NCBI RefSeq assembly: GCF_014274465.1 | Contig: NZ_CP060394.1 | Span: 5,890,001 to 5,954,000, forward strand | Length of the DNA stretch: 64,000 nt | Source of the DNA: Alloacidobacterium dinghuense | Lineage (GTDB): Bacteria; Acidobacteriota; Terriglobia; Terriglobales; Acidobacteriaceae | Reading direction: 5' to 3' | Part shown: in pieces, positions 8,559 through 13,867 of the stretch | How positions within the stretch are numbered: position 1 is the first letter of the stretch | How the letters are laid out: every line of letters begins with the position of its first letter | The notes under the pieces: generated by a model | What the model saw: only the letters and a program-made list of their open reading frames with translations | Databases searched by the model: none | What the model was told of the DNA's origin: nothing | Position numbers and translations under genes: made by a program

Positions 8559-9215
8559 CTACACTACCTGCATCATCTGGTCGCCGACGGCTGCTGCCGC
8601 CTCCGCCAGTATTTTGTGGTGCATGGTGAAAAGAGCCAGTTCCAGACGGTCTGAGACACCTGTTTTGTCATAGATGCTGCGCAGATAGTTCTTCACTACC
8701 TGCTCAGTTGTTCCCAGCCGGATGGCAATTTCCTTGTTTTTGCAGCCCTGCGTGATGAGAGCGACAATCTTCATCTCTTTCGATGTGAGACGGTCACGGA
8801 CGCGCGCACCTACCGCGTCCTCTTCCAGTAGTTCGAAGTTACCGGTTGCCGGCTGCTGAAAGCGTTCGCCGCCAGCAACGCGCCGTGCGCAGTCTAGTAA
8901 AGAAGAGCCGCTCACATTGCGGTAGACAAGTCCTTCGACTCCAGCTGAAAGATAGGGCTGAGGTGAATCGTTGTTTTCAAGAATGGCGATCGATCGGCTG
9001 CCGGCACTGGCGATCCGATCCATCAGCATTTTGAGGTCTGTTTTCAATGTGGCTGCAAACATCAGCACCACACCACGAAAAGCATCAATGGCCTGGTACA
9101 ACCGATCTGAATCCGGGCACTGAGCGATGATGCGAAAATCGTCTTCCATGGCGAGGATTTTCGCTGTGCCTGCGCGAAAAATCGCCTGATTATCCGCAAG
9201 AATAATTTTGTTCAT
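8559..9215 (-). CDS. LuxR/NarL-type regulator with degenerate receiver domain
   Basis: A 218-residue protein with response-regulator layout. Residues 1-120 align to a receiver fold and ~140-200 form a LuxR/GerE helix-turn-helix (LTSKEMKIVALITQG at 143-157, then NKEIAIRLGTTEQVVKNYLR at 160-179). The receiver has lost its chemistry: only one acidic residue (D8) remains in the first loop, the strand that should end in the phosphoacceptor Asp reads GVVLMFAAT (48-56) with no Asp, and the conserved Lys is Arg in LVYRN (97-100). It is therefore a pseudo-receiver, probably controlled by protein contacts or a ligand instead of phosphotransfer. It is divergent from the receiver-flavoreductase gene across a ~500-bp gap. 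DNA binding is well supported; the targets are unknown. Confidence 0.85.
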   Translation of the reverse strand: MNKIILADNQAIFRAGTAKILAMEDDFRIIAQCPDSDRLYQAIDAFRGVVLMFAATLKTDLKMLMDRIASAGSRSIAILENNDSPQPYLSAGVEGLVYRNVSGSSLLDCARRVAGGERFQQPATGNFELLEEDAVGARVRDRLTSKEMKIVALITQGCKNKEIAIRLGTTEQVVKNYLRSIYDKTGVSDRLELALFTMHHKILAEAAAAVGDQMMQVV

Positions 9216-9713: not shown

Positions 9714-11363
9714 ATGCCTAAGCCTGTCATTCTTGCAGTAGACGACGATATCAGCGTCCTTGAAGCCGTGATACAGGACTTGCGCCGCCAGTATGGCGCG
9801 AACTACCGCATTCTGCGCGCAGGCTCCGGGCAGGCGGCTTTGGACACCTGCACCCAGTTGCAGCAGCGCGGCGACGCGGTTGCGCTCTTCTTATCCGACC
9901 AGCGCATGCCCGGAATGACGGGCGTGGAATTTCTGGAGAAGGCGCAGGATCTCTATCCGGACGCGAAGCGGGCCCTCCTGACCGCTTATGCGGACACGGA
10001 AGCGGCGATCAAAGCCATCAACACGGCCCGAATCAACTACTACCTGACGAAGCCATGGGATCCGCCTGAGGAGAAGCTCTATCCGGTTCTGGATGATTTG
10101 CTGGAGAACTGGAAGGAAGACTACAAGCCGCCATTTGAAGGATTGCGGGTCATTGGGCCGCGGTGGTCCCTCAATGACTACCAAGTACGCGATTTCCTTT
10201 CACGGAATCAAATTCCTTATGTTTGGCTCGATCCCGAGAAAAGTGACGAGGCGGTTCAACTGTTGGAGCGCTTCAGGCTGGATGATCATAAGCTGCCAGC
10301 CGTGCTTTTCCCCGATGGCACATCGCTTGTGCAGCCCAGCCAGACTCAACTGGCGGAGCGCATCGGCCTGCGAACGCAGGCACAGAAGGAGTTTTACGAT
10401 TTGGTGATTGTGGGAGGCGGTCCAGCCGGCCTGGCAGCGGCGGTGTATGGCGCATCGGAAGGGCTGAAGGCTCTGGTGATCGAGCCTGAGGCTCCCGGCG
10501 GGCAAGCGGGCAGCAGTTCCCGGATTGAGAATTATCTCGGTTTCCCGTCTGGCTTAAGCGGCGCCGATCTTGCGCGTCGTGCCTACGCACAGGCTTCACG
10601 CTTTGGCGCAGAATTCCTGACGCAGCGGGCTACGGGGATTCGCTCGGAATCAAACTACCACTTCATCAAGTTGGCCGATGGCAGGGAGGTTTCGTGCCAC
10701 GTGGCGCTGATCGCCGTAGGGGTGAACTACCGCAAGCTGGATATTCCCGGCCTCGATCAGTTCACCGGTGCGGGCGTCTACTATGGAGCGGCGCAAGCCG
10801 AAGCGATTTCCTGTCGTAACGAAGATGTCTATATCGTTGGTGGTGCCAATTCGGCTGGACAGGCGGCAATGCACTTTTCCAAGTACGCACACAAGGTTAC
10901 GATGCTAGTGCGCTCCTCACTGGAGAAGAGCATGTCGAAATACTTAATCGATCAGATTGCTGCTACATCCAATATTGAGGTTCGGACAGGCACTGAGATT
11001 AAGGAAGTGCAAGGTAACGGACGGCTGGAATGCATCAAAGTGGGCAGTCCCAAGGGAGAAATTGTTTGTTCGGCTTCGTCACTCTTTATTTTTATCGGCG
11101 CGGCGCCGCAGACGGATTGGCTGCCAGAGACTGTGATGCGTGATCCCAACGGTTTTGTGCTTTCAGGCCCTGACCTGCAGATAGAGAGCAAAATGCCGAA
11201 GATATGGAAGGAAAGCCGCTCGCCATATCTGCTGGAAACCAGCACTCCCGGCATCTTTGTCGCCGGTGATGTACGCCACGGCTCGGTGAAACGCGCCGCT
11301 TCGGCGGTCGGAGAAGGCTCGATTTCGGTTCAGTTCATGCACCAATATCTCGCTCGTTTTTAG
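9714..11363 (+). CDS. Fused response-regulator receiver / thioredoxin-fold / thioredoxin-reductase-like flavoprotein
   Basis: A 549-residue three-part protein. Residues 1-135 are a canonical receiver with acidic DDD 10-12, phosphoacceptor D62 (FLSDQRMPG) and K113 (LTKPWD). Residues ~142-220 resemble a glutaredoxin/thioredoxin-like fold but contain no cysteine. Residues ~226-549 form an FAD/NAD(P)H pyridine nucleotide oxidoreductase, with FAD motif GGGPAG 234-239, NAD(P)H motif VGGANSAGQAA 375-385 and C-terminal FAD motif GIFVAGDV 513-520. The redox-active CxxC that thioredoxin reductases carry between the two nucleotide motifs is absent: that place reads GVYYGAAQAEA (354-364). Databases often name such fusions thioredoxin-disulfide reductase, but direct disulfide reduction is unlikely. 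It probably couples phosphorylation to flavin electron transfer. The kinase gene follows after 18 bp. Confidence 0.88.
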   Translation: MPKPVILAVDDDISVLEAVIQDLRRQYGANYRILRAGSGQAALDTCTQLQQRGDAVALFLSDQRMPGMTGVEFLEKAQDLYPDAKRALLTAYADTEAAIKAINTARINYYLTKPWDPPEEKLYPVLDDLLENWKEDYKPPFEGLRVIGPRWSLNDYQVRDFLSRNQIPYVWLDPEKSDEAVQLLERFRLDDHKLPAVLFPDGTSLVQPSQTQLAERIGLRTQAQKEFYDLVIVGGGPAGLAAAVYGASEGLKALVIEPEAPGGQAGSSSRIENYLGFPSGLSGADLARRAYAQASRFGAEFLTQRATGIRSESNYHFIKLADGREVSCHVALIAVGVNYRKLDIPGLDQFTGAGVYYGAAQAEAISCRNEDVYIVGGANSAGQAAMHFSKYAHKVTMLVRSSLEKSMSKYLIDQIAATSNIEVRTGTEIKEVQGNGRLECIKVGSPKGEIVCSASSLFIFIGAAPQTDWLPETVMRDPNGFVLSGPDLQIESKMPKIWKESRSPYLLETSTPGIFVAGDVRHGSVKRAASAVGEGSISVQFMHQYLARF

Positions 11364-11381
11364 GATTTCGATAACACAAAG

Positions 11382-12830
11382 ATGGCTCAACAAGTCGCTA
11401 CCGCCAACGCAAGAAAAGTCAGTGCCAAGGAACTTTATCCGGAACTGCGCAGGATTCCCACCTTTTCTCAGACTTCAGAGGAGGACCTTGCCTGTCTAGG
11501 CGATGTGGATGTGCTGGATGTTCCGGCAGGGTCGATCCTCTACCGGGCGGGCGAAAGTGCGGTCTATTTCTGGATCGTGCTGCATGGCGAGTTGCGGGCT
11601 TATAAAAGCGACAGCGACGGCTCGCAGATGTACATCAATGTGGTCAAAGACGGAGACACGTTCGGCGAGGTCGCGATTCTCGCAGGGCATGCGGTTACGG
11701 GAGCCACGTGCGAGACGATAACCGACTGCACTTTGGGACGGGTTCTGCCGGAGAATTTCTGGAGCCTGATGGCGACTTGCCCAGTGGTGCGCAGAGCAGT
11801 TCTTGAGAATATGTCGCGCAGGCTGGAAGCCTATACGGCTCTTACACTGCACCGAGAAAAGCTTATCTCGCTCGGCACTCTTGCCGCTGGACTGATGCAT
11901 GAGCTGAATAATCCCGGAGCCGCGGCCAAGCGCGCGGCCTCGCAACTTAGAGAAAACATGACGCGTCAGCAGGAATTGAGCCTGCGCATGTCCCGCGCGC
12001 AGCTTTCTCCAGATCAGCTTGAATGCCTGGCGCAGTTGCAGGAAGAGGTTTTTACGCCGGCCAAGCATCCGGCTATGAGTTCCCTTGAGCAGAGCGATGC
12101 CGAGGAAGCGCTTACTGAGTGGCTGGAGAGTATCGGAGTTGAAAACGCCTGGAAAATGGCTCCTACGCTCGTCGCCGCGGGCTGGACGCGCGGTGATATT
12201 GAATGCGCGCAGGAGTCGTTCCCGTCGAACGTGCTTTCGGACGCACTGAACTGGCTTGAGGCTCTTGTTTCGAATGTGCAGCTTGTCGGGACCATTGAAG
12301 AGAGCATTGCACGTGTCACCGAGCTGGTGATGGCGGTAAAGAAATACGCCTACGAAGATAAGAACAAACAACACAAGCTCGATATCCACGACACGATCCA
12401 GAGCACTCTTACCATCCTTGGCCACAAGTTCCGCCAGAAGCAGATCACGATCGAAAAGCAGTTCAATCCCGACATTCCTGTACTTACGACCTGCGGCTCG
12501 GGAATCAGCCAAGTGTGGACGAACTTGCTAGACAACGCCATTGATGCATCTCCGGAGCCGGGGAAGATTACGGTTCGCACCTGGACGGAGGGCGAATGGG
12601 TGTGTGTCGGAATTACCGATCAGGGAGCAGGCATCGCTCCCGAACATCGCGCCAAGGTCTTCGAGCCCTTCTTCACGACGAAGCCCGTCGGCATTGGAAC
12701 CGGTCTGGGGCTTGATATCGCCCACCGCGTTGTGACTGGTCACTACGGAGGTCAGATCAGCTTTGCCAGCGAGCCGGGAAAAACGGAGTTCGTGGTGAAG
12801 CTGCCGATGACGAATCCGAAAGAAGTCTAA
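11382..12830 (+). CDS. Sensor histidine kinase with N-terminal cyclic-nucleotide-binding-type (CRP-like) domain
   Basis: A 482-residue soluble kinase. Residues ~27-150 form a CRP/cNMP beta-roll, including GDTFGEVAIL 91-100. The phosphate-binding Arg that should follow is missing (AGHAVTGAT), so cAMP or cGMP may not be the ligand. Residues ~160-190 hold the H-box with H173 in LMHELNNPG. A helical insert with conserved tryptophans covers ~195-310. Residues ~360-478 are the HATPase, with N-box LLDNAIDAS, G1 DQGAGI, F-box FEPFFTTK and G2 GTGLGL. There is no membrane segment, so it senses a cytoplasmic signal. It starts 18 bp after the receiver-flavoprotein, its probable phosphotransfer partner. 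Confidence 0.9.
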   Translation: MAQQVATANARKVSAKELYPELRRIPTFSQTSEEDLACLGDVDVLDVPAGSILYRAGESAVYFWIVLHGELRAYKSDSDGSQMYINVVKDGDTFGEVAILAGHAVTGATCETITDCTLGRVLPENFWSLMATCPVVRRAVLENMSRRLEAYTALTLHREKLISLGTLAAGLMHELNNPGAAAKRAASQLRENMTRQQELSLRMSRAQLSPDQLECLAQLQEEVFTPAKHPAMSSLEQSDAEEALTEWLESIGVENAWKMAPTLVAAGWTRGDIECAQESFPSNVLSDALNWLEALVSNVQLVGTIEESIARVTELVMAVKKYAYEDKNKQHKLDIHDTIQSTLTILGHKFRQKQITIEKQFNPDIPVLTTCGSGISQVWTNLLDNAIDASPEPGKITVRTWTEGEWVCVGITDQGAGIAPEHRAKVFEPFFTTKPVGIGTGLGLDIAHRVVTGHYGGQISFASEPGKTEFVVKLPMTNPKEV

Positions 12831-12967: not shown

Positions 12968-13867
12968 GTGTTTGTCATTGTTGGAATGGTAGTCGTGATC
13001 GCAGCAGTGCTTGGGGGCTTCCTCATGGAGCGCGGATCGCTGCTGGTTCTGATGCAGCCCGCTGAGCTGATTATCATCGGGGGAGCGGCGGCGGGAACAT
13101 TGCTGATCGCCAATCCCATGCGCCTTCTTAAGGAGATTGCAGCGCGCGGCCGGCGTGTTTAGCAAATCGCATTACGGTAAGGAAGCCTACCTCGCGGCCT
13201 TCAAGATGATGTATGAGCTGCTCAGCAAGGCGCGGCGCGCAGGCATGCTATCGATCGAGATCGACATCGAGACACCTGCAGAGAGTCCAATATTTCAAGC
13301 GAATCCCGGGTTTCTAAAACAGAAACACATCTGCGATTTTGTGTGTGACACCTTGCGTTTGGCAGTGAGTAACAACGCCGAGCCTTTCTCTACTGACCAG
13401 ATGCTGGAGCTAGACATGGAAGTGCGGCACCACGGCGCAACGGAATCTGCGGGCGCTCTGAGTGCCGTGGCGGATTCGCTTCCTGGCCTGGGAATTGTTG
13501 CGCCGTGCTGGGCGTGGTGATTACGATGAGCGCGCTGGGTGGTCCTCCTGAAGCGATTGGCCACAAAGTGGCAGCGGCTCTAGTCGGGACGTTTCTTGGC
13601 ATTCTGCTTTGCTATGGCTTCATCGGGCCCATCGGATCGCACATGACGAAGATTGCTGAAGAGGAACGAGACTACCTGCACGTGCTGCGCGTATTGATGA
13701 TCTCGGCCATCAAGGGCGATCCTCCGATTATTGCCATCGAAATGGGACGCCGCGCCATTCCACTGCACGAGCGGCCTTCTTTCGTTGAAGTAGAGGCAGT
13801 TTGTCGCGGTGAAGTTGCTGCACCTACTGAAGGCGCGCAGGGCGAGCCTCGCGTAACCGGCCCGTAG
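12968..13867 (+). pseudogene. motA: Frameshifted motA (flagellar stator protein MotA)
   Basis: Three reading frames together give a MotA-like protein. Frame one runs from GTG 12968 (VFVIVGMVVVIAAVLGGFLMERG) to a stop at 13162. A second frame continues from about 13150 (GVFSKSHYGKEAYLAAFKMMYELL, then NPGFLKQKHICDFVCDTLRL) to ~13500. A third completes it (VLGVVITMSALGGPPEAIGHKVAAALVGT, then GFIGPIGSHM) to TAG 13867. One extra base near 13150 and one missing base near 13503, both in short G/C runs, explain both breaks. MotA normally forms the proton channel of the flagellar motor with MotB. No motB follows, and the next sequence is another broken gene. Sequencing or assembly error is the alternative explanation. 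Confidence 0.85.

Follow-up and report, generated by a model that had tools for sequence, protein, structure and literature searches.

The best-known response regulators act on DNA. The gene pair described here, from Alloacidobacterium dinghuense, joins a response-regulator receiver to a redox enzyme. It lies in a stretch of 64,000 nucleotides (contig NZ_CP060394.1, positions 5,890,001 to 5,954,000), hereafter the window, in which positions are counted unless another record is named. The first gene (9714..11363, + strand) encodes a fusion protein of 549 aa with a receiver, a glutaredoxin-like domain and a flavin domain resembling thioredoxin reductase (TrxR); 3' of it, on the same strand and after a gap of 18 bp, follows the gene of a histidine kinase with a CRP domain (11382..12830, 482 aa). 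Open reading frames were called as the longest frame, so that some assigned starts lie too early. The locus had been singled out from its sequence (the original prediction); its coordinates, strand and gap were found to be correct when re-read, and the observation as a whole was confirmed. The interpretation survives in part: enzyme output, missing disulfide site and kinase partner stand, and details of the middle domain, the sensor and the reach of the co-occurrence need changing. On balance, we regard the pair as probably a two-component system in which a signal gates an NAD(P)H:FAD enzyme that reduces a non-thiol acceptor.

The flavin domain has its fold and motifs in common with the low-Mr TrxRs (TIGR01292) and AhpF. 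In AhpF, thioredoxin-fold domains stand in front of the flavin domain. The fusion differs from these enzymes in lacking a CxxC both in its flavin domain and in the domain in front. A flavin domain without CxxC is shared with the TrxR-like ferredoxin/flavodoxin reductases (FNR), which are described as having the TrxR fold without CxxC and as reducing non-thiol partners, e.g. flavodoxin (PMC10294844); the sequence of the fusion, however, groups with TrxR and AhpF and not with FNR. A census of archaeal two-component systems notes receiver-thioredoxin reductase regulators, called 'Mycobacterium-like', and counts enzymatic output domains among the recognised trends (PMC5847659). Since the same receiver and TrxR combination is thus already in print, the fusion is not a new kind of protein; the census passage on these regulators makes no mention of a glutaredoxin domain, missing cysteines or a kinase partner. 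A brine-pool metagenome yielded ATII-TrxR, a TrxR with a CRP domain (552 aa; cNMP domain 13-146, TrxR homology 234-522), which is reported to bind FAD and to use both NADPH (Km 5.2 μM) and NADH (Km 4.2 μM) (PMC6544261). Its cNMP and TrxR layout is that of a CRP-fused sister branch of the fusion discussed below; it differs from the fusion in carrying the regulatory domain in cis, in having no receiver and in being treated, in that account, as a true thioredoxin reductase.

Pfam recognises Response_reg (residues 6-118) and Pyr_redox_2 (residues 228-535) in the one protein, which supports the proposed response regulator with an enzyme as output of a canonical receiver. The flavin domain (residues 226-548; 10389..11357, + strand) was delimited from Pyr_redox_2 (E 1.4e-34), TIGR01292 and Foldseek matches to TrxRs. 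Its FAD and NAD(P)H motifs are intact, with the contacts G234, G236, G239, G262-Q264, G376, N379 and D519 invariant in 42 aligned fusions; S380, A381 and Q383, which together with G376 and N379 belong to the NAD(P)H-binding motif GGANSAGQAA (residues 376-385; 10839..10868, + strand), are equally invariant. Where solved TrxRs have their YCAxC site, the alignment places GVYYGAAQAEA (residues 354-364; 10773..10805, + strand), bearing out the predicted replacement of the CxxC. The TrxR-type CxxC is absent from 153/153 members of a cysteine-less branch that includes the fusion, among which (duplicates and truncated rows removed) Tyr357 is kept in 153/153 and Glu363 in 149/153, so the site appears to be under constraint and not decaying. 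The acid aligned to Glu363 is Asp in 30/31 CxxC-bearing rows, the Asp that serves as general acid in E. coli TrxR.

Membership of the TrxR family was rejected, as the protein has no CxxC beside the flavin and scores 202.7 bits with TIGR01292 (thioredoxin-disulfide reductase) against a cut-off of 343.45, albeit this cut-off is a weak discriminator, the CxxC-bearing relative L100 also falling below it (304.1 bits). Membership of the TrxR-like FNR was likewise rejected: the closest matches are TrxR and AhpF, and FNR chains appear at 2.7e-14 or weaker. By Foldseek, the AlphaFold model of the fusion (monomer, mean pLDDT 86.3, low confidence at residues 269-278) matched L. lactis TrxR with a TM of 0.90 in the flavin-reducing form (5mh4) and 0.62 in the flavin-oxidising form (5mjk). 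In this one prediction, the flavin-reducing-like conformation is what might be expected where there is no disulfide to be reached. Apart from C46, C328, C367, C440 and C452 the fusion has no cysteine, so that both the middle domain and the site aligned with the TrxR CxxC are cysteine-free. A conserved cysteine pair elsewhere in the protein was rejected: among 82 aligned proteins no pair is conserved and no cysteine column exceeds 60%, in agreement with the predicted lack of a disulfide site.

The middle domain (residues 142-218; 10137..10367, + strand), originally taken for a cysteine-free thioredoxin-like domain, is indeed without cysteine but is rather a mycoredoxin-type glutaredoxin. A profile of 31 members matches the mycoredoxin of M. 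tuberculosis (Mycoredoxin-1, PDB 2lqo) with an E-value of 5.8e-11. Pfam Glutaredoxin is found in 24/31 members (best E 1.7e-6), and was not found in the window's own fusion at E up to 10. The structure prediction that had been proposed as a check gave the b-a-b-a-b-b-a order of a glutaredoxin-type fold. Fold and sequence homology thus agree with the glutaredoxin/mycoredoxin family; the active site is neither WCxxC nor CxxS and reads W151-S152-L-N-D155 (10164..10178, + strand). In canonical receiver rows, position 152 is Ser in 84/94 and Cys in 0/94, and position 155, the second Cys site, is Cys in 5/94. The domain is homologous to Mycoredoxin-1 and differs from it in that the fusion family has the first Cys replaced, mostly by Ser; judged by these alignments, it is a mycoredoxin-type glutaredoxin that has lost its WCxxC.

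The receiver (residues 6-118; 9729..10067, + strand; Response_reg E 4.7e-14) has the D-D / D / T / K phosphorylation site of response regulators. The phospho-acceptor D62 (codon 9897-9899, + strand) and K113 (codon 10050-10052, + strand) are present as predicted, and D10, D11, D62, T90 and K113 are invariant in 42/42 aligned fusions and kept in 94/94 rows of the canonical class, defined as scoring above 150 bits against a profile that was itself made from the loci studied. A degenerate-receiver class comprises receiver fusions at 39-47% identity, in which D62 is kept in 8/21.

The association with the kinase is nearly perfect in the canonical class. With 1.5 kb available on both sides, a kinase lies within 1.5 kb in 78/79 canonical-receiver loci, on the same strand in 77 (counted before duplicate removal, some loci twice), and by this adjacency the regulator has a cognate histidine kinase gene. 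The sole exception is a Nostoc plasmid, where the kinase is 2.6 kb off, past a transposase. Another 43 canonical loci had less room; 40 have the kinase, and the three that do not (L032, L063, L080) are all at contig ends. Even samples were also taken from three phyla, scoring first-look candidates only (13 per genome in the window's phylum) and including the centre genomes G000, G119 (= L071) and G121 (= L043), chosen for having the pair. The window's phylum (119 genomes) has the full fusion in 15 genomes, with the kinase adjoining in 15/15, and 0 kinase matches at E 1e-45 in the remaining 104 (co-occurrence p 2e-19). In the phylum of Kribbella (149 genomes) the kinase stands beside 21/21 fusions of ≥50% identity (two incomplete genes), and in that of Pantanalinema (98 genomes) beside 4/4 full fusions, Pantanalinema included, a fifth being a broken fragment. 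In these samples, homologues of the two genes are hence not rarely together. Going by record titles among the best 80 of at least 576 loci, a choice that biases the set toward the query, the pair recurs in Acidobacteria, Cyanobacteria, Gemmatimonadota, Chloroflexi, Bacteroidetes and Actinobacteria. Three plasmid records with both genes adjoining are annotated 'FAD-dependent oxidoreductase' and 'ATP-binding protein'.

Such a kinase is found within 1.5 kb in 0/18 degenerate-receiver loci with room and in 0/20 loci fetched for this class (L113-L132), and near CRP-fused enzymes in 0/14. The co-occurrence thus holds in the canonical branch and is limited to it, because the degenerate-receiver fusions have no adjoining kinase. 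The very tight pairing could also be read as an ordinary relay with the flow reversed, the flavin domain reporting its redox state to the kinase and the receiver serving as a phosphate sink, and the fact that kinase sensors are exchanged while the enzyme half is retained would suit such a relay. The CRP-fused sisters, however, keep the enzyme half without such a kinase, which fits control from input to enzyme better, and we regard reverse flow as very unlikely.

The kinase model (mean pLDDT 90.1) and Pfam matches delimit a CRP-like sensor of about residues 15-132 (11424..11777, + strand; cNMP_binding at residues 47-132, E 3.7e-18) and an ATP-binding domain (HATPase_c, residues 374-477; 12501..12812, + strand; E 4.4e-25). 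The predicted phospho-acceptor His173 (codon 11898..11900, + strand), assigned by alignment and H-box counts, lies in HELNNP, and His173 and Glu174 are invariant in 34 aligned kinases. An extra helical segment of about 76 residues is predicted from the model between the two DHp helices (about residues 206-281; 11997..12224, + strand); it is present in paired kinases, residues 206-282 spanning a median of 77 across 77 kinases, a few truncated ones included.

In cAMP-binding CRPs, the phosphate-binding cassette contains an Arg. The cassette of the window's kinase (11664-11714, + strand) is GEVAILAGHAVTGATCE, with Thr106 in the column of that Arg, and cAMP sensing by this kinase is unlikely judging by its sequence. 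The original remark that the sensor lacks the phosphate-binding Arg thus applies to the window's kinase but not to the family as a whole: among 72 aligned CRP-type kinases the residue at this place is Arg in 15, Ser in 18 and Tyr in 13, and the cassette begins with GE in 54/72, the alignment being loose there. Since the column varies in this way, the family may not share a single ligand. A CRP sensor as an essential part of the pair was rejected. It is present in the window's kinase and is exchangeable elsewhere: the five scanned kinases whose genes precede their fusion comprise three with PAS (two of them REC-PAS-PAS), one with CRP and one with no recognised sensor, and a sixth scanned kinase, on the opposite strand to its fusion, has PAS. 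Because the kinase sensors differ and a CRP domain sits on the sister enzymes, the enzyme half is, by these comparisons, the constant part and the input the variable one. Three CRP-domain kinases stand in tandem beside one fusion (L137 1853-6152) and two in tandem in L135; a second CRP-domain kinase of the window's genome (G000:C1:212409; L089 6392-7843) has no fusion within the 12 kb fetched.

Relatives of the enzyme half show where the cysteines were lost. After removal of 16 duplicate and 2 truncated rows out of 202, 13 glutaredoxin-TrxR relatives without a front regulator hold both sites (WCPDC and CATC type), and one more keeps the TrxR site with WCPDS in the glutaredoxin; proteins of this regulator-free layout are mostly 400-450 aa. 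Both CxxC sites are gone in 153 proteins, the window's copy included, and 149 of these are receiver- or CRP-linked: 112 canonical-receiver proteins plus one cut short, 21 degenerate-receiver proteins (one without any glutaredoxin domain) and 15 CRP-fused ones, the rest being two proteins whose front part is unassigned and a further two, L144 and L153, without a front regulator. Fifteen plasmid proteins, 3 already among the 153, also lack the CxxC at the flavin site, and in two of these, L215 and L216, no front regulator is recognised.

A tree of 128 flavin domains, inferred by maximum likelihood with the CxxC columns excluded and with SH-aLRT values only as support (no bootstrap), needs a single change of state for the CxxC loss, and the cysteine-less side has an SH-aLRT of 100. 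Within it, L144 and L153 branch first, followed by a branch made up mainly of CRP types and by one of receiver types (SH-aLRT 91), which holds the canonical and degenerate groups together with L072. This single loss, together with the regulator-free proteins branching first, indicates that both cysteine pairs were probably lost before, or together with, acquisition of the first regulator. The node of all others has an SH-aLRT of just 60, so L144 and L153 could alternatively have lost a regulator secondarily. Loss of the cysteines upon gain of a regulator was rejected, since the cysteine-less L144, L153, L215 and L216 have no recognised front regulator. The approximately unbiased (AU) test rejected one receiver clade of canonical and degenerate groups (p 0.0009), which we tentatively ascribe to L072, a receiver-type protein truncated at its N-terminus that stood outside the tested group. 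As far as these sequences tell, the fusion apparently descends from a thiol-reducing enzyme that lost both cysteine pairs.

Sequence comparison establishes the domain order, the phosphorylation residues, the gene pairing, the absence and single loss of the two disulfides and the conserved replacements. For the signal-gated enzyme that we favour, the kinase would autophosphorylate on His173 when its CRP-type sensor binds a ligand (probably not cAMP), and the phosphate would pass to Asp62 of the receiver. The phosphorylated receiver may then alter the dimer or domain arrangement of the flavoenzyme, which we take to be a dimer like TrxR, and switch it on or off. NAD(P)H would reduce the flavin and, because the flavin-adjacent and the glutaredoxin disulfides are both lost, electrons would go directly to a non-thiol acceptor. 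Candidates for this acceptor are oxygen, a quinone or a protein that docks on the glutaredoxin domain, itself free of cysteine.

Alternatively, the flavin domain may be an NAD(P)H/FAD-loaded sensor or docking module, with phosphorylation and flavin redox state setting a protein interaction and no substrate being reduced. The loss of both catalytic disulfides and the degenerate receivers in the family (D62 in 8/21) would agree with this, as would the finding that, next to the canonical pair, the phyla compared have no conserved acceptor gene in common. A module of this kind is, however, rather unlikely in view of the invariant FAD and NAD(P)H contacts, the near invariance of Tyr357 and Glu363, and the turnover of NAD(P)H reported for a CRP-domain enzyme of TrxR type (PMC6544261).

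In the sister branch, a CRP domain is carried in cis on the enzyme; one such paralogue is found in the window's own genome (G000:C1:538956). The strongest result against a non-thiol acceptor comes from enzymes with a CRP domain: reduction of DTNB and of thioredoxin is reported for ATII-TrxR (PMC6544261), and in three plasmid loci a CRP-fused enzyme without CxxC has trxA just upstream. Thiol reduction is not expected of a thiol-less enzyme, if ATII-TrxR does belong to the cysteine-less branch, and its named redox cysteine pairs (206-223 and 376-467, from the legend of a modelled structure), not being CxxC, suggest that it does. The sequence of ATII-TrxR was not traced via Cupriavidus records, and the cysteine positions of L109 do not match it. 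The missing acceptor gene noted above also weighs against the favoured reading, as does the fact that the conformational argument comes from a single prediction, of low confidence at residues 269-278.

These results raise the question whether the fusion is still a thiol-disulfide reductase, acting on thioredoxin or a small disulfide through scattered cysteines, e.g. C367 and C328, or directly from the flavin. Besides ATII-TrxR and the adjoining trxA genes, this idea can draw on C367, which is Cys in 15/15 CRP types and 57/94 canonical receiver types, but in 0/21 of the degenerate-receiver branch. Given also that the 82 aligned proteins have no conserved pair, and that the pairs named for ATII-TrxR are not CxxC, we consider it quite improbable. 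The three loci with trxA are on actinobacterial plasmids (L217, L218, L224), the CRP-type enzyme standing just 3' of clpB and trxA in a stress-island-like arrangement; in L217 and L218 a zf-UBP gene lies between clpB/trxA and the enzyme.

Small zinc-finger genes of the UBP type (zf-UBP) are candidate partners of the cysteine-less enzymes. In the Kribbella-phylum sample, 8/42 zf-UBP matches (7/31 genomes) lie within 1.5 kb of a cysteine-less match, and, counted by genome, the two occur together in 21/31 against 11/118 (p 1e-10), the enzyme matches including three CxxC-bearing glutaredoxin-TrxR genomes. For the window's phylum the figures are 13/20 against 7/99 (p 5e-8), leaving out one CxxC-bearing genome and one match below the cut-off, and just 1/24 zf-UBP matches is beside an enzyme match (G019); genome size and kinship are uncontrolled in both comparisons. 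Among annotated plasmid regions, 6/14 have a zf-UBP gene near the enzyme, two each with receiver-type (L112 8107-8460; L222 7137-7487), CRP-type (L217 2780-3046; L218 2780-3046) and regulator-free enzymes (L215 4792-5064; L216 3032-3304). The zf-UBP gene of the window's genome is 570 kb away and adjoins a CDGSH/Fer4_19 gene; this next gene carries Fer4_19 and two CDGSH motifs (L225 4968-5883). A wider scenario, which we offer as tentative, is that a thiol relay of mycoredoxin and TrxR was stripped of its two disulfides in one ancestral step and became a non-thiol electron donor wired either by a CRP domain in cis or by the kinase and receiver, with the cysteine-free glutaredoxin as docking platform and zf-UBP proteins in the pathway.

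Two neighbours of the pair may be recorded. A divergent LuxR-family gene (8559-9215, - strand) gave only Pfam GerE and a weak sigma-70 match; its receiver-like half is unrecognised by Pfam and, by eye, has no Asp at the usual phosphorylation place. Homologues are present in 57 of the fetched loci, of which some count twice, almost all of them in Acidobacteriaceae and near the fusion. Downstream, a motA-like gene (13004-13810) has its homology split over two frames and looks broken.

A search of titles and abstract openings, with subscription journals outside its scope, found no treatment of the kinase pair or the double cysteine loss. New, as far as that literature goes, are the recognition of the middle domain as a glutaredoxin, the combined lack of both disulfides traced to one loss, the alternative of receiver or CRP domain, the almost complete pairing with a kinase that is confined to canonical receivers, and the connection with zf-UBP. 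That two disulfides are missing together also suggests wrongly named chemistry in some records, such as L220, which is called thioredoxin-disulfide reductase and has no CxxC at the site. Here the output is a redox enzyme, and the gene pair is conserved in several phyla. If the wider scenario is true, this would be a two-component system controlling electron flow instead of genes, and if the enzyme is gated by phosphate, the pair would provide a direct and quickly measurable link from a bacterial signal to NAD(P)H oxidation.

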